Positions 2,936 to 20,539 of a stretch of DNA of 25,512 nucleotides are shown here, piece after piece (within the stretch, counting starts at the first letter, position 1; each line of letters begins with the position of its first letter). Under the pieces are notes generated by a model. It had not been told where the DNA came from, searched no databases, and was given only the letters and a program-made list of their open reading frames with translations. Made by a program: the position numbers and the translations under genes. The DNA comes from a virus, in IMG/VR virus record IMGVR_UViG_3300020439_000073, positions 1-25,512 of that record; one strand, 5' to 3'.

Positions 2936-3190
2936 ATGGGAAATTCACCCGTTGATAGAGACAAAAAATACATGAAACAGATGTGGGGGACCACAAGATT
3001 AGCAACAGATTACATTGTAGAGGAAAAAATGGCAACTCAGAATGATTTTTTGGACAATTTAGCAAATCATCAGCATCAAAAAATGCTTCGTGAGATCTCA
3101 AATGATGATTTGACACCTAAAAAGAGAGATACTGTTCAAGAAACAGAGATTTTTGAAGTAGAGAGTAATCCAGAGACTCTTTTTGAGTGA
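2936..3190 (+). CDS. Hypothetical protein (84 aa) upstream of gp25
   Basis: The 84-residue product begins MGNSPVDRDKKYMKQMWGTT. It is charged and hydrophilic, with a probable helix around KMATQNDFLDNLANHQHQKMLREI and an acidic C-terminus (ETEIFEVESNPETLFE). No membrane segment, signal peptide or known motif is seen. It sits between a late promoter and the gp25 late promoter, in the place where T4-like phages often keep small baseplate or chaperone genes, so a late assembly role is possible but unproven. The start is chosen for the AGAGG six to ten bases upstream. Confidence 0.65.
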   Translation: MGNSPVDRDKKYMKQMWGTTRLATDYIVEEKMATQNDFLDNLANHQHQKMLREISNDDLTPKKRDTVQETEIFEVESNPETLFE

Positions 3191-3238: not shown

Positions 3239-3640
3239 GTGCCTTTAGAACGGGTAAGTCGTGGTTTTAAAGATGTCAGTATGACTTTTCAGAGGAATCC
3301 TCTGAATGGTGATATTCTTGGGCTAAAAAATGAAAATGCAATTGCTCGATCTATAAGAAATATTGTTTTTACGATTCCTGGAGAGAAATTTTTTAATCAA
3401 TCTTTTGGTTCTGATATAAATCAGTCTCTCTTCATGAATATTGATGAAATATCTGCAGTTATTATAAAAGATCAGATATCATCATCTATATCCAAGTTTG
3501 AACCAAGAGTAAATTTAGTCGAAGTTGTTATAAATCCAAATTTTGACAATAATAGTTTTGATGCAACTGTCATTTATGAAATAATAGGTGCAGATATCCC
3601 TCCACAAGAATTACAATTCGTTTTGCAGCAAACCAGGTAA
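3239..3640 (+). CDS. 25: Baseplate wedge protein gp25
   Basis: The 133-residue product matches T4 gp25 (132 residues) in length and in key segments. FFNQSFGSDINQSLF corresponds to the T4 stretch around FDPEFGCDLSDQLF, and KFEPRVNLVEVVI to NYEPRIDKLAVNV. It belongs to the GPW/gp25 family, with a lysozyme-like fold, and forms part of the baseplate wedge, where it joins gp6 and gp53 and contacts the sheath. The start is a GTG at 3239: an in-frame TAA lies at 3212-3214, no ATG lies between, and the residues after GTG fit the family N-terminus. It is the first gene of the baseplate block and ends three bases before gp6, so the two are probably translationally coupled. Confidence 0.92.
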   Translation: MPLERVSRGFKDVSMTFQRNPLNGDILGLKNENAIARSIRNIVFTIPGEKFFNQSFGSDINQSLFMNIDEISAVIIKDQISSSISKFEPRVNLVEVVINPNFDNNSFDATVIYEIIGADIPPQELQFVLQQTR

Positions 3641-3643
3641 AAA

Positions 3644-5686
3644 ATGCCATTATCTAATTTCTCTAACCTGGATTTCGACCAGGTTAAAACCACACTTAGA
3701 GAATATCTAAAGGAAAACTCTAATTTTACTGATTATGATTTTGAAGGGTCCAACCTTTCATCAATATTAGATGTTCTGGCTTATAATACCTACATCACCT
3801 CATATAACGCAAACATGGTTGCGAATGAGGTATTCATTGATAGTGCCACATTAAGAGAAAATGTGGTTTCATTAGCAAGAAATATTGGATATCTTCCTAG
3901 ATCAAGAAAAGCAGCAAGAGCAACTATATCATTCTTTATTGATACTTCAAATATTACCCCAGCACCAAGTACAATCACCTTAAAGAAAGGTATTGTTGCT
4001 ACAAGTCAAGGTTCTTTTGGTAATCAATCATTTACATTCTGTATTTTAGATGATATCACGGTTCCTGTTTATGATGGTATAGCATCTTTTGATGATGTAA
4101 GCATTTACGAAGGAACATTCCTTACATCCAATTTTACATATAATTCAAGAACACCGAATCAAAAGTTTATTCTTAATAATGTCGGCATTGATACTGAGTT
4201 ATTATCAGTTACAGTAAGACCAAATCAAAATTCAACTAGATCTGTTAAGTATAGTCTACAAGATAGTCTTTTCCAGATTAAATCAGACTCAAAAGTTTAC
4301 TATTTACAAGAATCTGTAGACGAAAGATATGAATTATTGTTTGGTGATGGTATTTTTGGTAAAAAGTTAGAAAATAACAATTTCATCACCGCAAATTACA
4401 TTACATCGAGTGGAGATTCTGCAAATGGAGTAGATCAATTCTCATTTGCAGGTCAATTAACTTATACAAGAAATGCAATCGAGTATACTATTACTTCGGG
4501 TATTTCATTGGTAACTACTGGTCTTCCTGCTTCTGGTGGAGAAGCAATTGAAGGTGTAGAATCAATTAAAAAGTTTGCACCAAGAATTTATGCTTCTCAA
4601 AATAGGGCATTGACGGCAAATGATTATGAAACACTGATTCCAGCAAAAATTTATCCCGAAACAGAATCAATTTCGGTATTTGGTGGAGAAGAGTTGGTTC
4701 CACCGCAGTATGGTAAGGTATTCATCAGTATTAAACCAAGATTTGGTGATTTCTTGCCAAATTTGATCAAACAAAATATTAAGACAAAACTCAAGCAATA
4801 TGCAGTCGCTGGAATTGTTCCAGAAATCCTTGATTTGAAATATCTGTACTTAGAAGTCAATACAAAGATCTACTACAATTCAAATCTAGCACCTTCTTCG
4901 GCATTTGTTTCAAGTATTGCTCAAAATAATGCTAATAGTTATGCAGAATCTACTGAATTGAATAAGTATGGTGCTAGATTTAAGTATAGTAAGTTTTTGA
5001 AGATAGTTGATGATAGTCATGAGTCTATCACGTCAAATATTACTACAGTTTCTATGAGAAGAGACCTGAGGGTAGTTACAAATAGTTTTGCGGAGTATCA
5101 GATTGGTTTTGGCAATTCATTCCATATTAAGAGTATGAATGGATATAATATTAAAACATCCGCATTCAGAATAGCAGGTATTCAACAAAATGTATATCTT
5201 TCAGATATACCAAATAGTGATGCTATTACTGGAAGTTTGTTCTTATTCACACTTCCTTCTGTTGGATCTCAAGACCCAACAATTGTAAGAAGAAATGTTG
5301 GAACTATTAACTATGCTTCTGGAGTTATTACAATAAATCCAATAAATGTCCTTGATGGTAAGTTAAAGGATGGTCGTCCTATTATTGAAATCGAAGCATC
5401 ACCAAGTTCTAATGATGTTGTCGGATTACAGGACCTTTATTTGCAACTAGATACTAGTAGTAGTTATTTTGACACGGTTGTGGATGAAATTGCATCTGGA
5501 CTTGATCCATCTGCATCTAATTACATTGTTTCGTCTAGTTATCCAAATGGCAATTTAGTTCGTGCAGGAGGACCTACAACTGCAGCGATAACTAATACAG
5601 CAGGAACTACTACATCAGCAAATACAGCAGCAACAACAACAGTTTCCACTTCAGGTGGAGCATCAACCGGTTCAAGTTCATACTAA
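3644..5686 (+). CDS. 6: Baseplate wedge protein gp6 (baseplate J-like)
   Basis: The 680-residue protein is close in length to T4 gp6 (660 residues) and directly follows gp25, as in T4-like phages generally. The segment at about residues 298-332, GGEAIEGVESIKKFAPRIYA followed by ALTANDYETLI, is the typical baseplate J-like core signature. The N-terminus (MPLSNFSNLDFDQVKTTLRE, then a helical region with YNTYITSYNANMVANEVFI) fits the helical start of this family. gp6 dimers form the inner ring that links baseplate wedges. The final 45 residues are low complexity, rich in Thr, Ala and Ser, and are probably a flexible tail not needed for the fold. There is no strong Shine-Dalgarno: the ATG follows the gp25 stop by three bases. 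Confidence 0.92.
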   Translation: MPLSNFSNLDFDQVKTTLREYLKENSNFTDYDFEGSNLSSILDVLAYNTYITSYNANMVANEVFIDSATLRENVVSLARNIGYLPRSRKAARATISFFIDTSNITPAPSTITLKKGIVATSQGSFGNQSFTFCILDDITVPVYDGIASFDDVSIYEGTFLTSNFTYNSRTPNQKFILNNVGIDTELLSVTVRPNQNSTRSVKYSLQDSLFQIKSDSKVYYLQESVDERYELLFGDGIFGKKLENNNFITANYITSSGDSANGVDQFSFAGQLTYTRNAIEYTITSGISLVTTGLPASGGEAIEGVESIKKFAPRIYASQNRALTANDYETLIPAKIYPETESISVFGGEELVPPQYGKVFISIKPRFGDFLPNLIKQNIKTKLKQYAVAGIVPEILDLKYLYLEVNTKIYYNSNLAPSSAFVSSIAQNNANSYAESTELNKYGARFKYSKFLKIVDDSHESITSNITTVSMRRDLRVVTNSFAEYQIGFGNSFHIKSMNGYNIKTSAFRIAGIQQNVYLSDIPNSDAITGSLFLFTLPSVGSQDPTIVRRNVGTINYASGVITINPINVLDGKLKDGRPIIEIEASPSSNDVVGLQDLYLQLDTSSSYFDTVVDEIASGLDPSASNYIVSSSYPNGNLVRAGGPTTAAITNTAGTTTSANTAATTTVSTSGGASTGSSSY

Positions 5687-5703: not shown

Positions 5704-8700
5704 ATGTCAGAAACCAGAGTCCAGTTTAATACTATCGTATCTAATCAACTTCCTCTTTATGTGAGGGAGGACTTTCCGTTAATATCTGATTTTTTAAAGC
5801 AGTATTATCTTGGACAAGAGTATCAAGGTGGACCTGTTGATCTGATTCAAAATATTGACAAGTATATTAAAATTGATAATACGACTGGATTATCAGAATC
5901 GGTAGTATTATCTGGAAACTTAGATTTTGATTCCACAGTAATTAATATTGATGTTGATAAATCTCCCACTGGAACTTTGGGATTTCCGGATTCTTATGGT
6001 TTACTTCAGATTGGTGATGAAATTATAACCTATACTGGAAAGACACAATTTTCCTTTACTGGATGTGTTAGAGGGTTTGTTGGAATTACTTCTTATAGAA
6101 GTGATACTAATAGAGAAGAGGTAGTATTTAAAGAGTCACTTGCCGAAGATCATCTGAGTGGTTCTGATATTAAAAACTTAAGTTGCTTATTTTTAAAAGA
6201 ATTTTTACTCAAAACTAAACATCAAATCTTACCTGGATTTGAAGATAGAGAATTATCAAGTAACTTAGACCAAAATCTGTTTCTTAAGCAATCAAAAGAT
6301 TTTTATTTAAGCAAAGGTACTGATAGATCTTTTGAAATCTTATTTAAAGCTTTATATGACGAAAACGTTCAAATCATCAGACCAGCAGAACGTTTAGTAT
6401 CTCCATCAAGTGCTCAATACTTAGTTACTAATGATCTTGTCGTAGAACCAATTTCGGGTGATCCTTCTGAGTTGGATCATTCTACATTATATCAAGATGC
6501 ATATAAATTTGATAACAATATTCAAAAATCTTATGCACCAATTACCAGCGTTGAAAAAGTAAACGCTGGGTATGGTGTAACTTTTTATAGATTAAAGCTT
6601 GATTCTGGATACAATAGAGATATTGAGGAAGAAGGTGCAATATACGGCAATTTTAAAGTACAACCATCCACAAAAATTATTGGAAATGTTTCTGCAGGAT
6701 CTACAATTGTTGATGTCGAATCAACGGTAGGTTTTGCTCATAGTGGAGAGTTATTTGTAAATTATTCTGATAGAACTACTGGGGTGGTATCATACACTTC
6801 AAAATCTCCAACTCAGTTTTTTGGCATAACTGACTTAGATAGCAATATTTCAGATACTGCTGTTGTTGGTATTAATACTTTTGCGTATGGACAATCTGCG
6901 ATAGATGGTAGTTTAATTGAAGTTAGAATTAACTCTGTTTTAAATTCAATTGAAATTCCAGAAGTATCTGACGAATTAGAAAAAGGTACTACTGCAAATA
7001 TTACAAGTTATGGATTTACAGAAGTAAGTCCTAAAACTCGCAATTGGTTCTATAATGTTGCTCCAATTTATAAAGTCTCTACTGTTGAATTAGTAGATAT
7101 TTCTGATAATACATATAAAATTACTCTAAATGTGCCAAATCAATTTAGATCTGGTGATAAATGCGTAATTATTGGATCGGATTCTTCAAGAAAAGAGGCA
7201 AATATTTCCACAATAATTGGAGAAAAATCCTTTACTATAAAAGGTCAGGGAGTTCTTGACACCAATTTAACATATAAATTGCAAAGAACTATTCTTAAAG
7301 GATTATCCTCAGTACTTCCATCAGTAGAATCATTCTCTACTGATGTTGATAGGGTTTACAAAAATACTTCTAATGATTACTTAGTATCTTCACCATCTAT
7401 TCCAAATTATGGATCACAGTCTTTAAATTCAACACTTAGAGAGAAAACTTTTTCGGGAACATTTTTGGGCGATGAATTTGAAATTACTGATCATGGATTT
7501 TACACTGGAGAATCTATTTACTATAAGGCAAACTCAGTTTCTCAATCCGCAACGGATTCTTTCGGAAATACAATTACTGAAACAGTTCGTGGACAAGGAC
7601 TTTTTAGTGATGGTTTATATTTTATCAAACGAATAAATGAAAGTAAAGTAAAATTTGCTAAAAGTAAGGAAGATATTTACAATTCCAAATTTATTTCTTT
7701 AGATACTGAGGTAACAGTTACTGGTAGTAGCATAAAACCATTTTCTTTCAATGATAAAACGGTAAAACCGCAAAATATTTTAAGAAAAATTTCTACACCA
7801 ATAAGTGATGGAACTAGGTCAGAAACCAGACCAGGTGGTACTGGAATATTTGTTAATGGTGTAGAACTTTTAAACTACAAATCTAGTGATTCTATTAAAT
7901 ATGGAAAAATTGAAAGTATTGATGTTTTATCTAGAGGTGTAAATGTTGATGTTATAAATCCACCAGATTTTGTTATTAAAGATGCTGTTGGGTATGGAGC
8001 ATCTGCACATCTTGCAGTTTCCGGTCAATTTACCGACATTAAAATTGTAAATCCTGGTTTTGATTATGTAGAAACTCCTACCCTAAAAATAGAAGGTGGT
8101 AATGGTCAAGGAGCTACTGGTTCTGTCAATATGAAATCTATTGACCATGCAGTAGAATTCTATGCAGATAGAGAATCTAATCAAGTCAATATAACTCAAT
8201 CTACAATTGGATTTTCAACATACCATAAATTTAGAAATGCAGAAAAAGTAATTTATAGAACAAAATCACAAGATGCAGTTTCTGGAATAGTAACTGATTC
8301 ATCTTACTATGTAAATGTTGTAGATGAATTTACCGTAAAACTTCATGAAACTGAAAGTCAAGCATTAACTGGGATCAATACGGTATCATTAACTTCTTAT
8401 GGTGTAGGAAAGCACTCTTTACAATCTTTTAGTAAAAAGTTAGTTGTACAATCAATAAACGTTACAGATGGTGGTTCTGGTTATGAAAATAAAAAAAGAA
8501 CTGCTCAGTCAGTATCTGGAGTCAGTACATCTTCAAATTCCTTTAGTATTAGAAACCATGACTATAATTCAGGAGAAAGAGTAAAGTATACATGTACAGA
8601 TACTCCTGCCTCTGGAATTTCTGTAGGGTCAGAGTATATTCTGACTAAGATTGATAATGATTCTTTTAAGTTATCTGATGTTGGTCCATCTAATGATATC

Positions 8701-11700
8701 AATTTTTACTATAGAAATAAGCAATATGTAGATATCACATCTGTTGGAGTAGGAACTCATATATTCAACTATCCCGATATTACAGCAACTTTAATTGGAA
8801 AAGTTGGAATATCTTCAGTTGGCACAGAAACATTTAAAGCATCAATACTTCCTGTTGTAAGAGGAACAGTTCAGTCTGTTCATATAGAAAATTCTGGTTC
8901 TAATTATGGATCTGAAGAGATTTTAAATTTTGATAGACAACCACAAATTTTATTAAATTCTGGATCAAATGCACAGGTAAAAGCAATTGTTAGTGGTGGA
9001 TCAATTCAAGAAGTTATTGTTCTGAATAGTGGTTCTGGTTATCATTCTACTCCGGATTTGATTATAAATGGTGATGGTTTTGGGGCAGTGTTAACTCCTA
9101 TCATCGAGAATGGTTCATTAGTTTCTGTTACTGTAATTGAAAAGGGAATTGGATTTGATGAAGATAGTACGACAATTGACATTATTCCTTCGGGATCTAC
9201 TACTAATGTTCCAAAGTTTAAATGCAATATCCAAAACTGGACTGTAAATTTGTTTGAAAAATATGAAAATGTATTTACGGATGATGATGGATTTTTAACA
9301 GAAGGTCTTCATAAAAATGAAATTCAATACACTCACATCTATACTCCAAGAAAATTAAGAGAGAAGGTTTACAGTGTAAATCAAGTTGGTGAGATTTTAT
9401 ATGGAAAACAAGATTTAAGAATAATTAATAACGAGGAATCTGATTCAAATTATCACTCTCCAATATTAGGGTTTGCATATGATGGAAACCCAATTTATGG
9501 ACCTTATGCATATTCGTCCAAGACTGGTGGATTTATAACTCAGATGTTGTCAGGATATTCTTTATTGGATAATCAGATTAATAGACCATCCACTTCAATT
9601 TATCCAGAAGGATTCTTTGTTGAAGATTATGAATATAAAAAGTCTTCTAGTGATTCTGTTCTTGATGAAAATAATGGAAGATTTTGTGTAACACCAGATT
9701 ATCCAAATGGAACTTATGCATATTTCACAGCAATAGAGAGAAGATCTCCAGAAACTTCTGGAAGATTTAAAAATTATAAAAAACCAGCTTTCCCATATGT
9801 CATCGGACATAATTATCATTCAATTCCAAATAACTTTAACTTTGTCAATAGTTCAAACTCTGATAATTATGATTTGGAAGCAAATGGTTGGAGAAGAAAT
9901 ACAAGTCCAATCAATTTAATAGAAGATGAATCTCAGTATCCATATTTGAATATTCCGAATAAATTAAATCAAACTGCTGAGATTATTGGAACAAATCCAG
10001 GTGTTGTTGGTGGTGTTGGTATTATTACTGGAGGAACTGGATATAAAGTTGGAGAATCTATAACTTTTGACAATAATAACACTGGAGGAACAGGAGCACA
10101 GGCTAAAATTAGTAGAGTTAAAGGCAAGACAGTAAGTTCTATAAGTGTTAACTCAATCATCTTGGAAAATATTGAGTTCTATCCTGGACAAAAGGATGGT
10201 GAGTATTTTGCCTTTGCAAATTCCCCACATGGAATAGAGAATTTAGATATAATTTCTATTTCAGGTTTATCTACATCATCTTCTTTCCTTGAAAGATCTT
10301 ATGTTGCTGGAATATCTACTAATAAATTAACTTTAGCTGGTGTTGGAACTACAGCAGTCGCAATCGGAACAGATGGATCTACTGGATTAACAACATACCT
10401 CAGTGTTACTGGAAATCTTGGATATCCTCATATTAGAGAGAATGACATTCTCCAGTCTGGAACTGAGAAGTTTAAAGTTCTGAATATTGATGTTGAGTCT
10501 TCAAGAATAAGAGTTTTAAGAAAAGTAAGTGGGTCAATTGGAACCACATTATCGGTAGGAGATCATTTCTACGAAATACCAAGAAAACTGAAGATTTCTT
10601 CTGGATTCAAAACAGATTCTAACTTAAAATTTAATAAACAAATATACTTTAATCCAGCAGAATCTATTGGTGTCGGAATAGGTTCAACATTAAATATCTC
10701 CAATCCTGGATTTGGGGCTACTCAATTGTTTGTACCAACCAAATCAATCTTTGTAAAAAATCATAACTTAGAGACGGGTGATCAATTAACTTATTCTGCT
10801 GGAGATGGTGGAAGTGGAATCATAGTTCAAGATGAGACTAACGTTGGGGTTGGAACAACCCTAGTAGATGGACAAAAGTTATTCGTTGCCAAAATTGATA
10901 ATAATTTAATTGGACTCTCTACAGTAAGAGTTGGACTCGGAACTACTGGAACATTTGTTGGAATTGCTGAGACTTGTAGAAATTCTACAACGTTACTCTT
11001 CACAAATGTTGGTGCTGGAGACACTCATAGTTTTGTAACCAACTATTCTGCAATAACTGGAGAAATTCAACGAAATGTGGTTACGGTTTCAACTGCACAA
11101 TCCCATGGATTAAGTCCAGATCATAATGTAACGGTTTCTATAAGTCCAAAAAATACTAAAAATGTAGTATTGGCATATAATGACACTCATAGAAGAATAA
11201 TTGCAAATCCTATATCATTTGTCTCTGCGGGAGTTAACACCACAGCAAATTCAATTACTCTCAATTCGCATGGACTGGAAACCGGAGATAAAATTATCTT
11301 TACTTCAGATGCTCCTTCTGAAGGACTGAATAGTGAAAAGATCTATTATGTAGTAAAAGTTAACAGGAATAAAATCAAACTTTCAAATACTCTTACTGAC
11401 TCTAAGAAAATTAATCCAGTAATTGTTAATATTAATAGTGCTTCTCATGGTACTATTAATCCTATTAATCCAAAAATTGATCTCTACAAAAACTCTACAG
11501 TAGTATTTGATCTATCAAGTGACTCTTTGTCTTATGTAAAACAAGGTTCTACATATTCTGCATTTGAATTTAACTTATATGAAGATGTGAACTTTACTTC
11601 TATATGGAATACTTCAGGATCTACCGAAGTATTTGAATTATCAAAATCGGGCAAAGTCGGAACTTCCGGAGCATCTGCAACTTTATTAGTAAATGATAAG

Positions 11701-14700
11701 ATTCCAGAGAATTTATACTATCGTTTAGATCCTATCTATGAAGGAGATATTCCTGCAATAAAATCTGAGATTATCTCTGATGATGAGGTTGTTTCTGGAA
11801 GTAAATTACTAATCAGAAACAGTAAGTATAATGGAACTCATGATATAACAGTCAATTCCACTAATAGTTTTACATATACTCTTACTGATGTTCCTGAAGA
11901 AGTTTCTTATGGATCTACATCAAATATTTCTTACATAACTGATTGTACTCATACAACAGGAGAGATTGCTCGGATTGATATCATAAATCCAGGTAGAAAT
12001 TATTATTCAACACCAGGAATTACTACTATTAATACTTCAAGTGGTGAAGGAGCAATTCTTAAAGTTACTCCTAAGAATATTGGTGGACTGAAGAAATTAA
12101 ATTTCAAAGACATTGGGTTTAATTATCCTTCAGATAAAACTTTGAATCCAAGAGTTTTATTCCCACAAACAATTAGAATTGATTCTCTTGCTTCAGTAGA
12201 ATCTATTGGAATAACTTCTTTTGGAAGAGGATTTAATATTCCACCAAAATTAATTGTTGTTGATGGCAAAACAAATAAAGTAGTAGAAGATTTAGCATTC
12301 AAGGTAACTCTTGGTAATAGAGACGTTGAAATTCTACAAAATACTAATGGTATCAGTAATGTAACTCCACTGATTATACCAACTGAAAGTGGTGCTGGTG
12401 TAGGAATTAAAACAATAACATATAACTCTTCGGGAATTGCTACAGCAACTCTTTCTGTAGGATTTAGTACTATTAACTCATTCCCATTTGCAGTTGGAGA
12501 CAAAGTTTTAATTGAAAGTACGAGTGTTAGTGTTGGATCTACTGGAAAAGGATTTAACTCTGCAAATTATGATTATAAATTATTCACCTTAACTGGAGTA
12601 ACTGAAAATCTTGGCGGAATTGGTGATGTTACCTTTGATATGTCGGATTTCTTGAAGGAATCAGAAATTCCTGGAGAATATGACACTATTAATTCTACAG
12701 GAAAAATTCTTGCACAAAAACACTTCCCAATTTTTGATGTAAATCTTGTTACTAGAGATTATTCTATTGGTGAAGTTGTAAAATCAGAAAACGCAACTGG
12801 TGTTGTAGAAGGATGGGATTCAAAGACATCATCTCTTAGAGTTTCTTCAGATGATAATTTTACTGTCGGTAATTTAATTGAAGGAACTTCTTCAAAAGTT
12901 ATTGGTGTAGCAAATTCAATCAAGGCATATGAGTCATATGCTAATTTTGAAGCAATGTCTAAAACGACTCTTGGGTGGTTAGATAATACAGGATCTTTGA
13001 ATTCGGATCTTCAGAGAATTCAGGATAGTTACTACTATCAAAATTTTGCATATTCAATTAAATCAAAAGTTCCATATGACACTTGGAACGAAACTGTATC
13101 TACATTAAATCACACTTTAGGATTTAAAAAGTTTGCAGATCTCCAAATGGAGTCTTCTAATGATAATAATGGATCTGTTAAGTCAAATTCATCTTCATTT
13201 GATCAAGTAACGAATCTTGATGGATTTGCAAGCTTGCATTGTGTTCATGATTTTGACTTAGTTACGGAAACTAATAGAACTCAAACTTCTGGACTTATTT
13301 CAAATGAGATTGTTTTCTCTAATAGAATTCTTATAGATTTCTTTGAATCTGTTGGTAATAGAGTTCTTTCTATTGATAATTTCCAATCTCAGTTTAATAG
13401 TAATCCTAGACCAACTGAATTTTCAATTATTGATACATTTAGCTCGTCTGAAATAAGAACAAGAAAGTTTATTACTTATGTAAGAGACAAGAGATTTACT
13501 GCACAAAGACAGATGATGTTGGTAAATGTCATGCATGATGACATTTTTGGATATATTAACCAATATGCTAGGGTTGAAACTGCATATGATCAAGGATCTT
13601 TTGATCTTTCATTCTCTTCAGGAACTGTAGATGCAAATCTTCAATTCTATCCAACTAAGTTTACTGTAAATGATTATAATGTCAGTGTTCTTTCTTATGA
13701 CTTTAAGGACACACTTCTTGGAACAGGAACAACAAGTTTAGGTGGTGTAGCAATTATTGATACTACAAGTGTTGATGTAAACGCTGGTGTAAAAACTACT
13801 ATAGTATCAATTGCAAATACATATACTTCCGCAAAAGTTTTAGTAAGTATCACTGCAGATACTTCTATTACTTCTGGATTAGATAATAATTTTGAATATC
13901 AAGAACTGAATATTCTACATAATGGTTCTGACATTAATATGCTAGAAATTGCAAGAATGTCAACTGAGATATCAAATTCTTCTCCTGGTCTTGGAACTTA
14001 TCATCCTTATTTTGAAGGAGATAATTTAAATATTGATTTTTATCCAGCAACTGGAATCGGAACTACCGGAGTTATTAATACAATTTTTGTTGGACTTGCT
14101 ACAGAAACTTCTAGTGGAATTGGAACTATTGAATTAAGTAGAGCAAAGGTTGAAGCAAAAACTACTACTATCGCAACAACACCTTCTCCCGGACCAGTTT
14201 CTGTCGCTCAGTATTCTAATGATTATGACGGAGCATACTTTATTGCTCAAGTTGTTGATACTATGAATAATGAACGTCAGTTATCTGAAATTGTTGTCGT
14301 TGACGATTATGTAGAGTCCACAACAACTGCAGATACTTGTTATGTTGAATATGGAAATATTGAAACTTCTAGTGGATTGGGAACTTTTGGAGCAGTAGTT
14401 TCTAGTGAAGGAGTTGTTTCACTGGTATTTACTCCAATCGCAAATACTGATATTGAAGTTAATGTTTATACAAACGCAATTGGTCTAATTGAAGATACTA
14501 CTGTCCCATCTGGTGTAGATTTTACTAACACATCAATTAATTCTATAGTTGGAGAGTATGAAGGAACTGAACGTGATGTGAAGAGAAAATTCTATCTTGA
14601 ACATGAAAATCTTGGAATTTTTGAAAGATACTTTGAAGGAGATAATCCAAGTGTTGTTAACACTCTTCAAAATTTAATTTCTATTCCAAATCATTATTTT

Positions 14701-17700
14701 GTTACTGGTGAAAAAATTAGATATGCTCATGTTGGAGCTGCAAATTCATCAATCGTTATCGCACCCACAACTTTTGTTGGTGCATCTAATACAACATTCT
14801 TACCTGCAGAAAATCTTTATGTAGTTAAGTATGATGAAAACAATATTCAAATTGCGACCAGTGCAGAAAATGCACTTAAAGCAATACCTGAAGTTGTAGA
14901 TATTACTTCAGTTGGAATTGGAACTTCCCACAGATTTATATCAACTAATCAGAACGCAAAAGTTCTTGTTTCTATTGATAACATTATACAATCCCCAGTA
15001 GTATCAACAGCAGTAACAACTACTCTTTCAAAAGAACTCACTGTTTTGGATGATTTAATTGCTTTCAGTGGAATTACTTCTTTCTTTGGAACAGATTTGA
15101 TTAAGATAAATGATGAAATAATGAAGATTGAAGGTGTTGGTATTGGTAGTACCAATGTAATGAGAGTACGTAGAGGTTGGTTAGGAACAAATCTTGGAGT
15201 TGGTGTTACTGGCGACTTAGTCACTAAAGTTGTTGGAAACTATAACATTGTTGATAACGATATTATTTTCTCAGAAGCTCCTTTTGGAAATGTTCCATTG
15301 GGATTAGAAACAAATGAACCTGATGAAAGAGATTGGTCTGGAATATCAACCTCTTCAAGCTTCCATGGAAGAAGTTTCATGAGATCTGGCATCCTACAAG
15401 GATCTAATGAGACTTATTATAAGAATTATCTTTTTGATGATATTTCTCAAGAATTTAATGCATTAAATAATGAGTTTACATTAAAGTCTGATGGATCGGA
15501 TGTTTCAGGAATAGAAAATGAAAATGCAATCATTCTTGTAAATGATGTTTTCCAGGCACCAGGAATTTCTGATCAATATGTACTTGAAGAAACTGCTGGA
15601 ATTACTTCAGTAAGATTCCAAGGAACTGAAACAACACCATTAGGACCTGATGTTGGAATTTCTGCTTTCCCTAGAGGTGGAGTTATTGTTTCAGTTGCAT
15701 CTACTGAAGGACTTGGATTCCAACCATTAGTTGCTGCAGGAGGAACTGCTGTTGTTTCTGGACTTGGAACTATTCAATCAATCAGTATCGGAAATAGTGG
15801 TTCTGGATATAGAGCAGGTATTCAAACAGTTGTAAATGTTGGTGTTGGAACTTCTAGCACTGGAACTCCAAATATTGAGTTTATTGGAACAGCTGCTATT
15901 AGTGGTGGACACATTGTTAGTGTTGCAATCACAAATCCAGGATCTGGATACACTTCTACAAATCAACCATATGTTGTATTTGATCCACCACTTAGTTACT
16001 CTAATTTACCACTGAAGTATAGTTCGGATTCAGCATCTGGTTTAGGTACTGAGGCAACTATTGATGTAGTTGTTGGTCAAGGATCTAGTGTTATTGACTT
16101 TGAAATTAAAAATACGGGATATGCGTATGGCAATGGTGAAATTCTCACAGTTGAAGTTGGCGGATCTACTGGAATCCCAACCACTTCATCATCATATAAA
16201 GAATTCCAAATAACTATTGACGAAGTTGCTACTGATAAGTTTAGTGGTTGGTCTTTAGGAACTCTAGAAGTTCTTGATAATGTTGACAAATATATTGATG
16301 GTCAACGTAAGGATTTCCCATTATTCCTTAATACTGAAAGAATATCTATTGTTGCAAGGAAAGGATCAAGAATTAGAGTTCAGGATGTTCTTTTAGTATT
16401 CGTTAATGACATTCTTCAAGTTCCTGGAGAATCTTATATATTTGAGGGTGGAAGTGTAATTACATTTACTGAACCAATTGCTGTTGGAAATAATATCAAT
16501 ATTTTGTTCTATAAAGGAACAGGAGATAGTGATGTTATTCTTAGAAATGTTGTCAATACAGTTAAAAAAGGTGATACTCTGCAAATAGTTCATAATAAAT
16601 CAATAGGTCAGCAAAAGTATTTGACTGAAGAAATAAGAGATGTTCAAGATATTCTTTCTACTGATCTTGTTGAGACAAATACTTATGATGGTCCAGGAGT
16701 TACGAATGATGTAACATTAGAAAGACCAGTTGTATGGTGCAGACAAACTGAAGATAAATTTATCAATCAAATTGCTGTTGGTAAAGATAGAGAACTTTAT
16801 GAACCAACTATTAATCCAATTTCTTATATAATCAAACCAGTTGCAATTGGATCAACAACGATTTATGTTGATAGTTTAAGACCTTTATTTGATGGTAGAA
16901 ATGAAAGTGATACTGATTTGTCTTTCCAAAATAAAGTCAAATTTATATCACAAAAAGTTAGAACTGGAGTAGCTGCAACTGCAGTTGTTTCTGGTCTTGG
17001 TACGATTTCATCAATTTCAATTTCTGATGGTGGATCTGGTTATTCTTCAGTACCAAATGTAACGATTGGTAATGTAGTTGGATCGGGTGCAGTAGCAACG
17101 GCAGTTCTTACTAATGGTTCGGTGACTTCTATAACATTGACAAATGCTGGAACAGGATATACAAATACAAAGCCACCACAAGTTCTTATTGCTCCACCTT
17201 CACATTCTGAAGAAGAAGTTACTGTTGATTCTTACTCAGGAGATAATGGAGTTATTGTTGGATTTGGAACTACAACTATAGATAATGTTGATGAAATGAT
17301 TGTTGATTTACATATTCCTTATGATTCTTCCCTTAGAGACACTTCTTTAGTTGGAACAGCAGTTACTTTGAGTTCTATATCAGTCAATGATTATTTCACA
17401 ATCTTTAATTCTAATGTAAGTGTTGGAAATTCTCCATTATATACATACAGCACTGATAGTGCTACTACAGTTGGATTAGCAACACATTTTATTGACACAG
17501 TATATCAGGCAAAAAGAGTTGAAGTTATTTCTAGAGAAGTTGCTGGAGTTTCTACAAATGTATTGAGAGTTAATTCCGTTCTAACTGGTATTGGAACAAT
17601 CAACTTTAGTAGTAGTAATGTTACATTAGATAATACTTCAGTTACTTTTGATACAACTGCAGATGCTGTGGGGTATGCTGGTGGAATATCAACTTCAAAT

Positions 17701-17856
17701 TATTTTGGAGAATTCTCTTGGGGTAAAATTAATCTTGTAGGAAGATCCAAGCAGGTCTCTTACAATGCAGAAGTTCTTAATGGATATGCTGGTATTTCAA
17801 CATCAGTTATTGTGACAAGAAAAGATTCACTCAGATCCAAGAGATACCTAGTATAA
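5704..17856 (+). CDS. Giant 4050-aa baseplate/tail protein, probable gp7 counterpart
   Basis: This single uninterrupted frame encodes 4050 residues, about four times the length of T4 gp7 (1032). It directly follows gp6, where gp7 stands in T4. The N-terminal 230 residues are helical (DFPLISDFLKQYYLGQ, LKEFLLKTKHQILPGFEDRE). They include residues 199-218, DFYLSKGTDRSFEILFKALY, which I align with T4 gp7 DFYSTKGIEASYKFLFKVLY. Residues 2442-2461, SYYYQNFAYSIKSKVPYDTW, align with gp7 SYYVMKIKSNLPSSRW. A preceding SH3-like stretch (about 2345-2400) also fits gp7. Both matches come from remembered T4 sequence. Between them lie beta-rich modules in at least two repeat families and a YHYH-type region (about 1230-1380, with FAYDGNPIYGPYAY and NGRFCVTPDYPNGTYAYF). 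The C-terminal 1550 residues hold more modules. No signal peptide or membrane segment is visible. Function: baseplate wedge and possibly peripheral fibre-like extensions. Gene existence and virion role are near certain; gp7 identity is likely. Confidence 0.8.
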   Translation: MSETRVQFNTIVSNQLPLYVREDFPLISDFLKQYYLGQEYQGGPVDLIQNIDKYIKIDNTTGLSESVVLSGNLDFDSTVINIDVDKSPTGTLGFPDSYGLLQIGDEIITYTGKTQFSFTGCVRGFVGITSYRSDTNREEVVFKESLAEDHLSGSDIKNLSCLFLKEFLLKTKHQILPGFEDRELSSNLDQNLFLKQSKDFYLSKGTDRSFEILFKALYDENVQIIRPAERLVSPSSAQYLVTNDLVVEPISGDPSELDHSTLYQDAYKFDNNIQKSYAPITSVEKVNAGYGVTFYRLKLDSGYNRDIEEEGAIYGNFKVQPSTKIIGNVSAGSTIVDVESTVGFAHSGELFVNYSDRTTGVVSYTSKSPTQFFGITDLDSNISDTAVVGINTFAYGQSAIDGSLIEVRINSVLNSIEIPEVSDELEKGTTANITSYGFTEVSPKTRNWFYNVAPIYKVSTVELVDISDNTYKITLNVPNQFRSGDKCVIIGSDSSRKEANISTIIGEKSFTIKGQGVLDTNLTYKLQRTILKGLSSVLPSVESFSTDVDRVYKNTSNDYLVSSPSIPNYGSQSLNSTLREKTFSGTFLGDEFEITDHGFYTGESIYYKANSVSQSATDSFGNTITETVRGQGLFSDGLYFIKRINESKVKFAKSKEDIYNSKFISLDTEVTVTGSSIKPFSFNDKTVKPQNILRKISTPISDGTRSETRPGGTGIFVNGVELLNYKSSDSIKYGKIESIDVLSRGVNVDVINPPDFVIKDAVGYGASAHLAVSGQFTDIKIVNPGFDYVETPTLKIEGGNGQGATGSVNMKSIDHAVEFYADRESNQVNITQSTIGFSTYHKFRNAEKVIYRTKSQDAVSGIVTDSSYYVNVVDEFTVKLHETESQALTGINTVSLTSYGVGKHSLQSFSKKLVVQSINVTDGGSGYENKKRTAQSVSGVSTSSNSFSIRNHDYNSGERVKYTCTDTPASGISVGSEYILTKIDNDSFKLSDVGPSNDINFYYRNKQYVDITSVGVGTHIFNYPDITATLIGKVGISSVGTETFKASILPVVRGTVQSVHIENSGSNYGSEEILNFDRQPQILLNSGSNAQVKAIVSGGSIQEVIVLNSGSGYHSTPDLIINGDGFGAVLTPIIENGSLVSVTVIEKGIGFDEDSTTIDIIPSGSTTNVPKFKCNIQNWTVNLFEKYENVFTDDDGFLTEGLHKNEIQYTHIYTPRKLREKVYSVNQVGEILYGKQDLRIINNEESDSNYHSPILGFAYDGNPIYGPYAYSSKTGGFITQMLSGYSLLDNQINRPSTSIYPEGFFVEDYEYKKSSSDSVLDENNGRFCVTPDYPNGTYAYFTAIERRSPETSGRFKNYKKPAFPYVIGHNYHSIPNNFNFVNSSNSDNYDLEANGWRRNTSPINLIEDESQYPYLNIPNKLNQTAEIIGTNPGVVGGVGIITGGTGYKVGESITFDNNNTGGTGAQAKISRVKGKTVSSISVNSIILENIEFYPGQKDGEYFAFANSPHGIENLDIISISGLSTSSSFLERSYVAGISTNKLTLAGVGTTAVAIGTDGSTGLTTYLSVTGNLGYPHIRENDILQSGTEKFKVLNIDVESSRIRVLRKVSGSIGTTLSVGDHFYEIPRKLKISSGFKTDSNLKFNKQIYFNPAESIGVGIGSTLNISNPGFGATQLFVPTKSIFVKNHNLETGDQLTYSAGDGGSGIIVQDETNVGVGTTLVDGQKLFVAKIDNNLIGLSTVRVGLGTTGTFVGIAETCRNSTTLLFTNVGAGDTHSFVTNYSAITGEIQRNVVTVSTAQSHGLSPDHNVTVSISPKNTKNVVLAYNDTHRRIIANPISFVSAGVNTTANSITLNSHGLETGDKIIFTSDAPSEGLNSEKIYYVVKVNRNKIKLSNTLTDSKKINPVIVNINSASHGTINPINPKIDLYKNSTVVFDLSSDSLSYVKQGSTYSAFEFNLYEDVNFTSIWNTSGSTEVFELSKSGKVGTSGASATLLVNDKIPENLYYRLDPIYEGDIPAIKSEIISDDEVVSGSKLLIRNSKYNGTHDITVNSTNSFTYTLTDVPEEVSYGSTSNISYITDCTHTTGEIARIDIINPGRNYYSTPGITTINTSSGEGAILKVTPKNIGGLKKLNFKDIGFNYPSDKTLNPRVLFPQTIRIDSLASVESIGITSFGRGFNIPPKLIVVDGKTNKVVEDLAFKVTLGNRDVEILQNTNGISNVTPLIIPTESGAGVGIKTITYNSSGIATATLSVGFSTINSFPFAVGDKVLIESTSVSVGSTGKGFNSANYDYKLFTLTGVTENLGGIGDVTFDMSDFLKESEIPGEYDTINSTGKILAQKHFPIFDVNLVTRDYSIGEVVKSENATGVVEGWDSKTSSLRVSSDDNFTVGNLIEGTSSKVIGVANSIKAYESYANFEAMSKTTLGWLDNTGSLNSDLQRIQDSYYYQNFAYSIKSKVPYDTWNETVSTLNHTLGFKKFADLQMESSNDNNGSVKSNSSSFDQVTNLDGFASLHCVHDFDLVTETNRTQTSGLISNEIVFSNRILIDFFESVGNRVLSIDNFQSQFNSNPRPTEFSIIDTFSSSEIRTRKFITYVRDKRFTAQRQMMLVNVMHDDIFGYINQYARVETAYDQGSFDLSFSSGTVDANLQFYPTKFTVNDYNVSVLSYDFKDTLLGTGTTSLGGVAIIDTTSVDVNAGVKTTIVSIANTYTSAKVLVSITADTSITSGLDNNFEYQELNILHNGSDINMLEIARMSTEISNSSPGLGTYHPYFEGDNLNIDFYPATGIGTTGVINTIFVGLATETSSGIGTIELSRAKVEAKTTTIATTPSPGPVSVAQYSNDYDGAYFIAQVVDTMNNERQLSEIVVVDDYVESTTTADTCYVEYGNIETSSGLGTFGAVVSSEGVVSLVFTPIANTDIEVNVYTNAIGLIEDTTVPSGVDFTNTSINSIVGEYEGTERDVKRKFYLEHENLGIFERYFEGDNPSVVNTLQNLISIPNHYFVTGEKIRYAHVGAANSSIVIAPTTFVGASNTTFLPAENLYVVKYDENNIQIATSAENALKAIPEVVDITSVGIGTSHRFISTNQNAKVLVSIDNIIQSPVVSTAVTTTLSKELTVLDDLIAFSGITSFFGTDLIKINDEIMKIEGVGIGSTNVMRVRRGWLGTNLGVGVTGDLVTKVVGNYNIVDNDIIFSEAPFGNVPLGLETNEPDERDWSGISTSSSFHGRSFMRSGILQGSNETYYKNYLFDDISQEFNALNNEFTLKSDGSDVSGIENENAIILVNDVFQAPGISDQYVLEETAGITSVRFQGTETTPLGPDVGISAFPRGGVIVSVASTEGLGFQPLVAAGGTAVVSGLGTIQSISIGNSGSGYRAGIQTVVNVGVGTSSTGTPNIEFIGTAAISGGHIVSVAITNPGSGYTSTNQPYVVFDPPLSYSNLPLKYSSDSASGLGTEATIDVVVGQGSSVIDFEIKNTGYAYGNGEILTVEVGGSTGIPTTSSSYKEFQITIDEVATDKFSGWSLGTLEVLDNVDKYIDGQRKDFPLFLNTERISIVARKGSRIRVQDVLLVFVNDILQVPGESYIFEGGSVITFTEPIAVGNNINILFYKGTGDSDVILRNVVNTVKKGDTLQIVHNKSIGQQKYLTEEIRDVQDILSTDLVETNTYDGPGVTNDVTLERPVVWCRQTEDKFINQIAVGKDRELYEPTINPISYIIKPVAIGSTTIYVDSLRPLFDGRNESDTDLSFQNKVKFISQKVRTGVAATAVVSGLGTISSISISDGGSGYSSVPNVTIGNVVGSGAVATAVLTNGSVTSITLTNAGTGYTNTKPPQVLIAPPSHSEEEVTVDSYSGDNGVIVGFGTTTIDNVDEMIVDLHIPYDSSLRDTSLVGTAVTLSSISVNDYFTIFNSNVSVGNSPLYTYSTDSATTVGLATHFIDTVYQAKRVEVISREVAGVSTNVLRVNSVLTGIGTINFSSSNVTLDNTSVTFDTTADAVGYAGGISTSNYFGEFSWGKINLVGRSKQVSYNAEVLNGYAGISTSVIVTRKDSLRSKRYLV
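7480..14945 (+). repeat. Diverged protein-level repeats: HG-x-TG-x-YY modules in the giant gene
   Basis: At least six copies of a beta-rich module of about 70-95 residues can be recognised in the translation. They lie near 7480-7746, 8212-8440, 8545-8775, 10753-11040, 11260-11460 and 14685-14945. The shared pattern is an H-G/N/D-aromatic start, a GE or GD pair, an aromatic or Tyr strand, a middle YYV or YFI strand, a D-x-x-x-x-KL turn, and in most copies a closing SVGVGTH-F. DNA identity between copies is low, so they are old duplications. Confidence 0.6.
7900..17190 (+). repeat. Diverged protein-level repeats: GSGY-x-x-P-x-V-x-I strands
   Basis: A second repeat family of about 30-40 residues has the form I-x-I-x-N-x-G-S-G-Y-x-x-x-P-x-V-x-I followed by a G-x-GA-x-A turn. 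Clusters occur near 7900-8130, 8860-9170, 10000-10120, 11955-12280, 15740-15975 and 16985-17190. Examples are ISISDGGSGYSSVPNVTI and VAITNPGSGYTSTNQPYVVF. The regular Gly-Tyr turns suggest a stacked beta structure such as a beta-prism or beta-helix. Confidence 0.6.
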
Positions 17857-17859
17857 ATA
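17852..17859 (+). promoter_or_regulatory. T4-type late promoter (TATAAATA) of the fibre block
   Basis: This is an exact late promoter octamer that contains the TAA stop codon (17854-17856) of the giant gene. It lies 19 bases before the ATG at 17879, leaving a leader of about 14 bases. It would start a new late transcript for the fibre gene and possibly the two proteases behind it. Confidence 0.7.
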
Positions 17860-17878
17860 TTTTTAAACTCATACGATA

Positions 17879-20539
17879 ATGGCATATCAGGGTATAGGGA
17901 CAGGTACATTACCAAATGATAACACTGGTGATAACCTAAGAGATGCTGGTATAAAAATTAACGATAATTTTTCTGAGTTATATAGCCATTTCGGAGATGG
18001 AACTAATCTGACAGCAATTGTCGGGACTGGTATAGCAACTGAAAGTGGAGTAGTAGGAACTGGTGTCACTCTTATTGATTTTAGAGGATCTGCGGTTGGT
18101 GAAGTTGTAGTTGGATCTGGAATTGCTACTATTACTGTTAGTGATTTCCAAGAAAGTTTATATGGAAATACTGATGTTGATACTCACTTAAATCGTTCAT
18201 CTGCTGGATCCAATGAAGTTTTAAGTTGGAATGGTAGTGATTATGAATGGGTAAGTAATGCTGGATATACAAACTCTAATGTAGATACTCATCTCAACCA
18301 ATCTACAGCAACTGATGGTCAAGTTTTAAGTTGGAACACCACTTCTGGTGATTATGACTGGGTAGATCAGTCTACTGGTGGTGGAGGTGGTGCAACTGAC
18401 CTTAATGGTTTAACCGATGTAACCATCACTAATGCATCTTCTGGACAAGTCCTTAAGTATGATGGTTCTAATTGGGTCAATGATACTGATGCTACTGGAG
18501 GTAGTGGAGGAATTTCTGGTGTTGTAGTTCAAGAAGAAGGATCTTCTGTAGGGACTGCAACGACTATTAACTTTGTTGGAACTGGAGTAACTGCAACATT
18601 TGATAGTGGTATTGCTACAGTTTCTATTATAGGAATTCCAACAGATACTGGTGACCTTACTAATAATGCTGGATTTACAACTACAGGTGCATTAGTAGGA
18701 CTAGCTACTACTGGAGATGTGTTCTCTGGCGATTATACCGATTTAACCAATAAACCTACAATTCCAACAGATACTGGTGACCTTACTAATAATGCTGGAT
18801 TTGCAACTACAGGTGCATTAGTAGGATTAGCAACTACTGGAGCACTTGTAGGATTTATTACTTCTGGTGATTCTGGAGCAGGATTAACTGCATTAACAGG
18901 AGCTGATGAAGGAACATGGGGAAATTCAACTAATTCCGCTCAAATAACTGTAGATGCCAACGGCAGAATTACAGGTATTACTAATGTTGCAATCTCTGGA
19001 GGTGGTGGAGGTGGTGGCATTTCTGGAATTAATGTTTTTAATAATGATACTTCTCTCGGAATATCAACTATTATCAATTTTGGCGATAACCTAAATGCTA
19101 CTGCCATAGGAAGTTCCATTAGTGTTAGTGTGACTGGTGTTGTTACATCTGTAGTAGGATTAGCAACAACAGGTGCATTAGTAGGACTAGCTACTACTGG
19201 AGCATTAGTAGGATTAGCAACCACAGGTGCATTAGTAGGATTAGCAACCACAGGAGCACTTGTAGGATTAGCGACTATTGGAGACGTGTTCTCTGGTAAT
19301 TACAATGATCTGACTAATAAACCTACAATTCCTGCCAGTCAAGATCTTGATAATGTTTTGGGAGTAGGTAATACTTCTTCTACTGGAATGAGTGTTGGTC
19401 TTGTTACTGCAACAGCAGTTACTGGATTTAGTTATCTTCAAGCACCTCATGGTAGCACAGTTTCATTCACTGTTACTGTTGCAAGTAAGGATTCTTCTCA
19501 CAGATATAATGGAACAGGTAGTGGTAGTGGATATTTGATCAATGGGGTTCAGGCACCATTCTTAACACTAACACCTGGAAGAACTTATAGATTTACAAAT
19601 GACAATACGGGAAGTCATCCTCTCAAGTTCTATCTTGAAGCAGATAAAACCACAGAATATACTTCAGGTGTAAATTTCCAGAATACCTATACTGAGATTG
19701 CAGTAGATGATCAGACTCCAACTGTCCTTCATTATCAATGTACTGCTCATGGATATATGGGTAATGCAGTACAAACTAATTCCAATAAAGTAAATTCACC
19801 TTATGGTATAGTTGGTGCTGGTTTTTCAACTGCTAGTGGAACATCATCGCAATTCTTAAAGGCAGATGGTTCTGTTGATAGTAATACTTATCTGACATCA
19901 GAGACAAGTCACAGTGATGTTCTTGTTGATGGTGACTTTACCAGTAATGGTTTCATGAAACGCACTGGTGCTGGAACATATTCTATTGACAGTAATACAT
20001 ATCTTACTTCTTATACGGAAAATGATCCAGTAGTTGCTGCCATAAATGGAATCGTCAAGTCTAATGGAACAACCATTTCTGCAGCAACAGCAGGAACTGA
20101 TTACTTAACCCCATCAGGTGATGGTTCTGGTTTAACTGGTATTATAACATCAATTAGTGCTGGAACCAATATTACTTTAACTGGTGGTCCTACAGGCATA
20201 GTTACTATTAATAGTGGGACAGCAACCACTACTGGAACATTTACTGCTACTGCAGGTGTTGCATATACTGCAAACACCTATACATCTTCAGACTTTGTAA
20301 CTACAGAATATACATTATTCTTCCAGCACTCGTCAGGAATTCAATCTCAAAAAGTTCTGGTTATGGATGATGAAACTACTGCATACTCTCAAGAATATGC
20401 AATTATGTCTAGCAATAGTCCTTTAGTTTCTGTTGGTGCAACAATTAAGAGTAATAATGTAGAACTTTGGTTTACACCAGAATCTGGAGTAAGTGGAATC
20501 ATTACTTACAAATTTACTAGAGACTCAATATCTCAATAA
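17879..20539 (+). CDS. Tail-fibre-like structural protein with cupredoxin-like domain
   Basis: The 886-residue product opens with a module common in marine myovirus structural proteins: GTGTLPNDNTGDNLRDAG followed by KINDNFSELY. Then come Gly/Ser/Thr-rich fibre repeats (ADGSVDSNTYL-type, LTNNAGFTTTGALVGLATTG, DLTNKPTIP), a poly-Gly linker near residue 375, and four tandem VGLATTGAL units at 426-461. Residues about 520-635 look like a cupredoxin: TYRFTND, then HPLKFY (His580), then HYQCTAHGYMG with Cys621, His624 and Met627. The C-terminal 130 residues are beta-rich and may be the tip. There is no signal peptide. The protein is probably a trimeric fibre or baseplate-attached spike contacting the host. 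Late expression is expected from the promoter overlapping the preceding stop. Whether copper is bound is unknown. Confidence 0.75.
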   Translation: MAYQGIGTGTLPNDNTGDNLRDAGIKINDNFSELYSHFGDGTNLTAIVGTGIATESGVVGTGVTLIDFRGSAVGEVVVGSGIATITVSDFQESLYGNTDVDTHLNRSSAGSNEVLSWNGSDYEWVSNAGYTNSNVDTHLNQSTATDGQVLSWNTTSGDYDWVDQSTGGGGGATDLNGLTDVTITNASSGQVLKYDGSNWVNDTDATGGSGGISGVVVQEEGSSVGTATTINFVGTGVTATFDSGIATVSIIGIPTDTGDLTNNAGFTTTGALVGLATTGDVFSGDYTDLTNKPTIPTDTGDLTNNAGFATTGALVGLATTGALVGFITSGDSGAGLTALTGADEGTWGNSTNSAQITVDANGRITGITNVAISGGGGGGGISGINVFNNDTSLGISTIINFGDNLNATAIGSSISVSVTGVVTSVVGLATTGALVGLATTGALVGLATTGALVGLATTGALVGLATIGDVFSGNYNDLTNKPTIPASQDLDNVLGVGNTSSTGMSVGLVTATAVTGFSYLQAPHGSTVSFTVTVASKDSSHRYNGTGSGSGYLINGVQAPFLTLTPGRTYRFTNDNTGSHPLKFYLEADKTTEYTSGVNFQNTYTEIAVDDQTPTVLHYQCTAHGYMGNAVQTNSNKVNSPYGIVGAGFSTASGTSSQFLKADGSVDSNTYLTSETSHSDVLVDGDFTSNGFMKRTGAGTYSIDSNTYLTSYTENDPVVAAINGIVKSNGTTISAATAGTDYLTPSGDGSGLTGIITSISAGTNITLTGGPTGIVTINSGTATTTGTFTATAGVAYTANTYTSSDFVTTEYTLFFQHSSGIQSQKVLVMDDETTAYSQEYAIMSSNSPLVSVGATIKSNNVELWFTPESGVSGIITYKFTRDSISQ
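18635..18834 (+). repeat. Direct repeat of about 74 bases, period 126, in the fibre gene
   Basis: The block encoding IPTDTGDLTNNAGF followed by TTGALVGLA occurs at 18635-18708 and again at 18761-18834, nearly identical at the DNA level. The second copy starts 126 bases after the first, so the reading frame is kept. The high DNA identity, in contrast to the old repeats of the giant gene, suggests recent duplication. Confidence 0.75.
19154..19282 (+). repeat. 27-base tandem repeat array (VGLATTGAL) in the fibre gene
   Basis: Four complete 27-base units (19154-19180, 19181-19207, 19208-19234, 19235-19261) encode VGLATTGAL. A partial fifth (19262-19282) ends as VGLATIG. Units differ mainly at third codon positions. 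Further single units occur at the 126-base repeat upstream. Being a multiple of three, copy number can change without breaking the frame. Confidence 0.85.

Follow-up and report, generated by a model that had tools for sequence, protein, structure and literature searches.

Results

The giant gene and its neighbourhood

The window, by which we mean the whole 25,512-base virus record analysed here, contains a giant open reading frame (ORF) at positions 5704-17856, which on translation is intact and encodes 4,050 amino acids with no internal stop. As the sequence-only reading had stated, it lies directly after two baseplate wedge genes on the plus strand, namely those for gp25, the sheath initiator (3239-3640; PF04965, 1e-12; phrog_261, 5e-48), and gp6 (3644-5686; PF21379, 5e-16; phrog_219, 5e-190), and the order is thus gp25, gp6, giant ORF; in T4, gp7 likewise stands directly after gp6. 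The giant protein matches phrog_2885, a "baseplate wedge subunit" family, across residues 1-3387, and its relatives, found in 473 phage records, come overwhelmingly from cyanophages. The next gene, also on the plus strand (17879-20539), encodes a gp9-like protein of 886 residues (phrog_677), whose N-terminal 50 residues resemble T4 gp9 (direct pairwise comparison: 45.7% identity over 46 residues, E=2.5e-6) and whose remainder is tail-fibre-like. No gp8 gene lies between the two in the window, and the same holds for P-SSM4. Farther downstream, positions 20570-22897 and 22911-25277 encode adjacent proteins of 775 and 788 residues that are 44% identical and belong to phrog_9158; the first matches the subtilase family PF00082 (3e-14), both retain the GTSSACP serine motif, and such a tandem subtilisin-like pair is unexpected downstream of cyanophage baseplate genes. 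Upstream, the product of 2161-2874 matches phrog_3704, named ferredoxin (4e-115), and has no Pfam match, the name being doubtful.

Anatomy of the 4,050-residue protein

Judged by its sequence, the protein consists of a gp7 core in three pieces that follow each other in the right order (residues 1-58, 156-240 and 2352-2490), inserts of about 95 and about 2,100 residues, and a 1,560-residue extension, all of the parts described below being on the plus strand. The first part of the core (residues 1-58, positions 5704-5877) corresponds to the N-terminal helices of the (gp6)2-gp7 bundle: profile A6, described below, aligns to T4 gp7 from residue 647, and AF2 predicts helices at residues 2-15, 18-23 and 25-41. 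Insertion site 1 (residues 60-155, positions 5881-6168) interrupts the helical core behind residue 58, appears as a gap in the A1 and A6 alignments and holds a beta module, M1 (AF2 pLDDT approximately 74-91 over residues 61-120). M1 is absent from this site in the gp7 of T4, Ochrobactrum phage OC, Ps15, phiM7 and the Desulfovibrio phage; further copies lie at residues 324-376 (weak) and 3106-3161 of the window protein. The insertion at site 1 is about 95 residues long here and about 600 in P-SSM4 and S-RIM2, and HTVC008M and Melnitz-3 carry a module of another type, M4, at nearly the same place. The KGT helical domain (residues 156-240, positions 6169-6423), which holds DFYLSKGTDRSFEILFKALY, is the second part of the core, recognised in the PDB searches with A3 (9e-5) and A6 (2e-7) and, below cutoff, by PF23786.

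Insertion site 2 (approximately residues 250-2351, positions 6451-12756) is delimited by module models and by the spacing from the KGT motif to the C core, which is 2,220 residues here and 129 in T4. Its insert of about 2,100 residues is rich in G, S, T, N, V and I, and contains M2 copies (residues 592-1917), GGSGY repeats (M3) and a YHYH domain (PF14240, Pfam E=1e-25; residues 1168-1344, positions 9205-9735). There follows the small beta module M4 (residues 2352-2410, positions 12757-12933), which scores approximately 50 bits with the M4 model and is predicted by AF2 at pLDDT 84-89 over its first 50 residues; it directly precedes the C core, as in short gp7s, and the two are contiguous in HTVC008M and Melnitz-3 as well. 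The C half of the core (residues 2419-2490, positions 12958-13173), matched by profile A7, holds SYYYQNFAYSIKSKVPYDTW and a following H-x2-G, in other words the pattern SYY...IKS...W...H-x2-G downstream of the helical core. Everything beyond (residues 2491-4050, positions 13174-17856) is a C-terminal extension with more M1, M2 and M3 copies.

The sequence-only reading had proposed a gp7 with about 2,100 residues inserted into its conserved C-terminal region and a further extension. The split core, the size of the insertion and the extension all stand, whereas the location needs correction. Namely, since residues 2352-2410 are the module that stands before the C half in short gp7s, the large insertion precedes this module and lies at the junction of two whole domains, the KGT helical domain and the small beta module, with no domain broken; the smaller insertion at residues 60-155 had been missed. 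In total, the protein has about 3,700 residues beyond its small core, mostly beta-rich. G, S, T, N, V and I make up 54-56% of the inserts as against 28-36% of the helical core parts. Over the whole protein we count six copies of M2, nine of M3 and two to three of M1, with the proviso that single-seed self-comparison found the M3 repeats only and that M1 and M2 were defined from hand-picked seeds, which makes the copy numbers somewhat subjective.

Relationship to T4 gp7

Two segments had been singled out from the sequence alone as resembling T4 gp7, and both are where they had been placed: DFYLSKGTDRSFEILFKALY at residues 199-218 (positions 6298-6357) and SYYYQNFAYSIKSKVPYDTW at residues 2442-2461 (positions 13027-13086), with T4 counterparts DFYSTKGIEASYKFLFKVLY at 733-752 and SYYVMKIKSNLPSSRW at 860-875. 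The gap between the two motifs is 2,223 residues here and 107 in T4, a net difference of about 2,116 that bears out the proposed insertion, and the second motif is followed by 1,589 residues here and 157 in T4. In pairwise comparison with T4 gp7, the first segment gives an ungapped BLOSUM62 score of 63, where the best of 1,000 shuffles reached 37, and a blastp match of 48% identity over 33 residues (E=1e-6). The second segment is at chance level in the same ungapped comparison (score 24; shuffles with a mean of 20 and a maximum of 40) and at E=0.03 in blastp, and for this reason profiles free of T4 were built. Two further strings had been thought to fit gp7, ENATGVVEGWDS (residues 2362-2373) and VGNLIEGTSSKVIG (2388-2401); they do lie in the beta module common to short gp7s according to the M4 model, but no match of this module to the T4 gp7 sequence was found. 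Likewise, the N-terminal 640 residues of T4 gp7 have no significant counterpart in the window protein outside the core. As they are also missing from short gp7s, they do not define the wider family.

An initial profile, A1, included T4 gp7 itself, which made its match (1e-33) circular, and it was replaced by A3 (25 cyanophage-type sequences), A6 (12 diverse gp7s, none of T4 type) and A7 (14 sequences of the C half, T4-free), each searched against 177,635 PDB sequences. With the N segment in A3, the gp7s of T4 and KP1 are the top two matches (9e-5 and 1e-4; the next at 0.22), the match on T4 gp7 covering residues 725-758. With the N half in A6, the gp7 matches are at 2e-7 and 1.5e-6 and cover T4 647-758, and the next, unrelated, match is at E=0.019. 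For the C half, a cyanophage-only profile, A4, found no gp7 in the PDB, but the broader A7 does: its sole PDB matches up to E=10 are the two gp7s, at E=0.012 and 0.032 (T4 858-902). Searched separately, then, each segment leads to gp7 independently, as the sequence-only reading would have it.

What is more, no rival gp7 gene was found in the complete genomes searched. In six-frame searches of 10 complete relatives and T4, each profile picks one ORF per genome and both halves pick the same one, with no other ORF carrying either half in any of the 10 relatives; in T4 the ORF found is gp7 (E=5e-10 for the N half; 5e-5 for the C half, its single match). P-SSM4 and S-RIM2 give two N matches each within the same ORF, because insertion 1 splits the N core. 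A natural bridge is provided by the gp7 of phage OC (631 residues), which resembles Straboviridae gp7 nearly end to end (95% of a 284-residue query aligned with AbTZA1, 4e-5) and also aligns with the two separated cyanophage halves as distinct pieces. The OC gene upstream of it (5881-7764) is also annotated "T4-like gp7" and by position should be gp6. Finally, the Pfam family PF23786 (Baseplate_wedge) holds the two gp7 halves adjacent to each other, at approximately 182-221 and 233-281 of the profile. In P-HM1 and in the window (residues 186-231; 17.1 bits, under the gathering score of 27) it is the N half that this family recognises, in S-PM2 and OC the C half. Several of these matches are below the cutoff, which is reached by HTVC008M, Melnitz-3, OC, Ps15 and phiM7. 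Taken together, the 4,050-residue protein is almost certainly gp7, with its core opened at two places.

The structure prediction for the N-terminal segment points in the same direction, although the AF2 models are weak. With a mean pLDDT of 59, the model of residues 1-330 is a low-confidence one, but its helices follow one another as expected and its beta module at 61-125 is predicted well. In a Foldseek search of 350,542 chains, its best match (E=2.7e-4, probability 0.94, 313 columns, TM-score 0.22) is 9f4a_A0, which has 1,031 residues and comes from the KP1 baseplate. We take this chain to be gp7, since the gp7 chains of entry 9f4a have 1,032 residues; given the low TM-score, this supports the assignment and does not prove it. 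The model of the C segment (A4, 24 sequences) has a pLDDT of 45, only its first 54 residues folding confidently, and its top PDB match, again 9f4a_A0, is not significant (E=0.72, TM-score approximately 0.2). The second match of the 1-330 model (positions 5704-6693) is 8jov_1 (probability 1.00, E=4e-3), a chain of 116 residues from the portal-tail complex of podophage GP4, and this similarity may reflect module M1 or the helical part.

Size, spacing and the YHYH domain across phages

In our sample, gp7 ranges in length from 503 to 7,312 residues. The spacing from the KGT motif to the C core is small in OC (123), T4 (129), the Desulfovibrio phage (132) and Ps15 (285), intermediate in Melnitz-3 (414), HTVC008M (549) and phiM7 (830), and giant in S-PM2 (1,611), the window (2,220), Bellamy (2,254), P-SSM2 (2,255), P-HM1 (2,372), S-RIM2 (2,742) and P-SSM4 (2,833). 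The C-terminal extension varies from 15 residues (S-CREM2) to 3,709 (P-SSM4). Cyanophage gp7 is enlarged at three places, namely in the helical core, at the domain junction and at the C-terminus, and the split-core plan is common to all cyanophages tested. Among 80 marine viral contigs fetched for comparison, the spacing is approximately that of the window wherever both gp7 halves are reached. In a tree of the core, the position of cyanophage groups relative to short forms is weakly supported (39-75%), and the branches leading to OLIVR5 and T4 are very long; we therefore draw no order of events from it. At the upper end of the range, P-SSM4 (gp7 at 2145-24083 of the fetched sequence; 7,312 residues) and S-TIM4 (ORF_101, 60439-80250 of the record, from 988 in the fetched sequence; it would be approximately 6,600 residues) spend 11-12% of their genomes on one wedge protein.

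The YHYH domain is present in every giant cyanophage gp7 tested: Pfam recognises it in the window, S-PM2, P-HM1, S-MbCM7, P-SSM4 and S-RIM2, and the motif identifies it in Bellamy, P-SSM2, S-CREM1 and S-CREM2. It is missing from all seven other gp7s in which it was looked for (HTVC008M, Melnitz-3, OLIVR5, phiM7, OC, Ps15 and the Desulfovibrio phage). In the window it scores 90.9 bits against a cutoff of 25, and its motif reads YAYF, the histidines that gave the domain its name being replaced. An enzymatic function was set aside in view of this loss, which also makes a binding role a guess.

Discussion

How might such a protein be built into a baseplate? In simple contractile phages, the counterpart of gp7 forms a bundle with two gp6-like chains, and a flexible loop and a C-terminal tail hold spikes or fibres (PMC10457771, PMC10966104); in particular, the holding regions are residues 80-106 and 201-242 of XM1 gp17 (PMC10457771) and 129-151 of A-1(L) gp32 (PMC10966104). 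We envisage that, as in T4 and related phages, each of the six wedges would form from the gp7 core described here and two copies of gp6 paired with it, and that the inserts, leaving the core domains whole, would project as six beta-rich arms. We thus infer large beta-rich arms on each wedge, as the sequence-only reading had done. Fibre docking and contact with the cell surface would most likely be the task of the repeats and the YHYH domain, and the arms could take over the work of T4 gp7's N-terminal domains and of separate peripheral proteins. That the arms are peripheral and face the host is a view toward which we lean somewhat. In S-CREM2, ORF122 (1,937 residues), named intermediate wedge protein, was detected in virions with 91 unique peptides (PMC10665884), and in it the N core occupies residues 16-237 and the C half residues 1860-1922. 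The exceptionally large hypothetical protein S-PM2d081, which mutated early and again later in a 500-day coculture (PMC9910659), is gp7 by our core profile test. Both observations are consistent with an exposed structural role.

A different explanation is already in print. Namely, gp7 has been described as absent in cyano- and pelagimyophages, with VrlC as its substitute (PMC7029224, 2020), in which case the giant protein would be an unrelated structural one and its motifs due to chance. Another study placed gp7 among non-cyanophage core genes and noted that proteins such as gp7 diverge so far that they are distributed over as many as nine clusters (PMC3037559). The weak pairwise match of the second motif to T4 would agree with chance resemblance. 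However, in HTVC008M, the SAR11 phage that serves as reference pelagimyophage in PMC7029224, it is a 1,016-residue "putative structural protein" between gp6 and gp8 (33435-36485 of the fetched sequence) that contains the two gp7 halves, neither of which is present in its VrlC. The whole-genome six-frame searches lead to one gp7 ORF per genome. Four proteins that are of VrlC type or lie next to one, three of these sequences being incomplete, showed no gp7 core. Moreover, in S-MbCM7 (KF156338) the labels VrlC and gp7 appear to have been exchanged between two giant genes (9598-20199 and 22173-30195): the gene labelled VrlC bears the gp7 core, which is absent from the gene labelled gp7 (2,674 residues tested). 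We therefore regard a replacement by VrlC as scarcely credible, and the data indicate that cyanophages have gp7, contrary to print. The sequence-only reading had remarked that many annotations treat gp7 as missing, which is true in part: the records of S-PM2, S-RIM2 and HTVC008M call the protein hypothetical or structural and PMC7029224 declares it absent, but those of P-SSM2, P-SSM4, S-SM2, P-HM1 and Bellamy name it gp7 or wedge initiator. In other words, the gp7 identity already stands in several annotations, was contested in print and is settled here at the level of sequence. For the split core itself we found no description in the open-licence literature, which does not by itself prove novelty.

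Even if the protein is gp7, its inserts could act otherwise than as host-facing arms. One can imagine that they mainly stiffen the baseplate as a structural ring or collar and make no contact with the host, as suggested by a plan retained across many hosts, by insert parts conserved between distant cyanophages and by the lost YHYH histidines; yet the size and content of the inserts vary strongly between phages, unlike those of a fixed scaffold, and the repeated alteration of S-PM2d081 in coculture (PMC9910659) also speaks against it, so that we consider a ring or collar rather unlikely. Alternatively, gp7 and a tail fibre could be united in one chain, with a fibre or adhesin fused on as the C-terminal extension and the insert acting as a spacer. 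This would fit the GGSGY repeats of the extension, which are common to other phage structural proteins, and the fact that the extension is separable, being nearly absent in S-CREM2. Nevertheless, a separate fibre-like gene comes next, the extension has no receptor-binding tip that Pfam would recognise, and one gp7 chain per wedge is expected, against the trimer of a classical fibre, all of which makes such a fusion improbable. As a whole, a gp7 wedge initiator with a split core and projecting inserts is, in our opinion, with high probability the best explanation.

These results correct the published absence of gp7 from two main groups of marine myophages. They assign a role to proteins that have 3,000-6,400 residues and are still called hypothetical in S-PM2 and S-RIM2, expose the exchanged labels in S-MbCM7 and name S-PM2d081, changed repeatedly during host-phage coculture, as the wedge initiator. 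The question of what the largest cyanophage particle proteins do thereby becomes a sharper one, namely what the inserts are, now that their sites in a known protein are defined, and whether they contact the cell. Tentatively, and as a possibility that we would not yet favour, gp7 might be a general insertion platform, that is, a small wedge core with two internal sites and two ends that accepts up to thousands of residues. Marine phages would in this way build the host-facing periphery of the baseplate into the wedge protein, in place of separate T4-type peripheral proteins, and the YHYH-bearing insert would mark the forms infecting cyanobacteria.

Comparison with known systems

The split architecture represents a variation on a known type of protein. 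T4 gp7 (1,032 residues; PDB 5hx2, 5iv5) resembles the window protein in its residues 647-758 and 862-902, which correspond to window residues 1-240 and 2419-2490, and differs in the lengths around these parts: in T4, 640 residues precede the core, 107 separate the motifs and 157 follow, as compared with 0, 2,223 and 1,589 in the window protein. Stenotrophomonas phage Ps15 (503 residues), Desulfovibrio phage 7757 (a 587-residue frame) and OC have the core from the N-terminus and then the C half, accompanied in OC and the Desulfovibrio phage by the beta module as in the window; in contrast to the window protein, all three are without insertion 1 and without YHYH, and have 123-285 residues from the KGT motif to the C half. 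The gp7s of phiM7 (1,006 residues), HTVC008M and Melnitz-3 (896) have a site 2 insertion of intermediate size and no YHYH. The gp7s of Bellamy (4,067 residues), P-SSM2 (5,195), P-HM1 (4,446), S-PM2 (3,048), S-RIM2 (6,378), P-SSM4 and S-CREM2 have the same split core, the YHYH domain and common module families, and differ from the window in the sizes of insert and extension; Bellamy gp7 is 52% identical to the window protein end to end. Finally, according to the literature, P2 gpI, Mu Mup48, XM1 gp17, A-1(L) gp32 and TssG occupy the same place in a 2:1 wedge heterotrimer (PMC6300606, PMC10457771, PMC10966104), and these counterparts from simple baseplates and the T6SS are much smaller than the window protein, XM1 gp17 having 242 residues.
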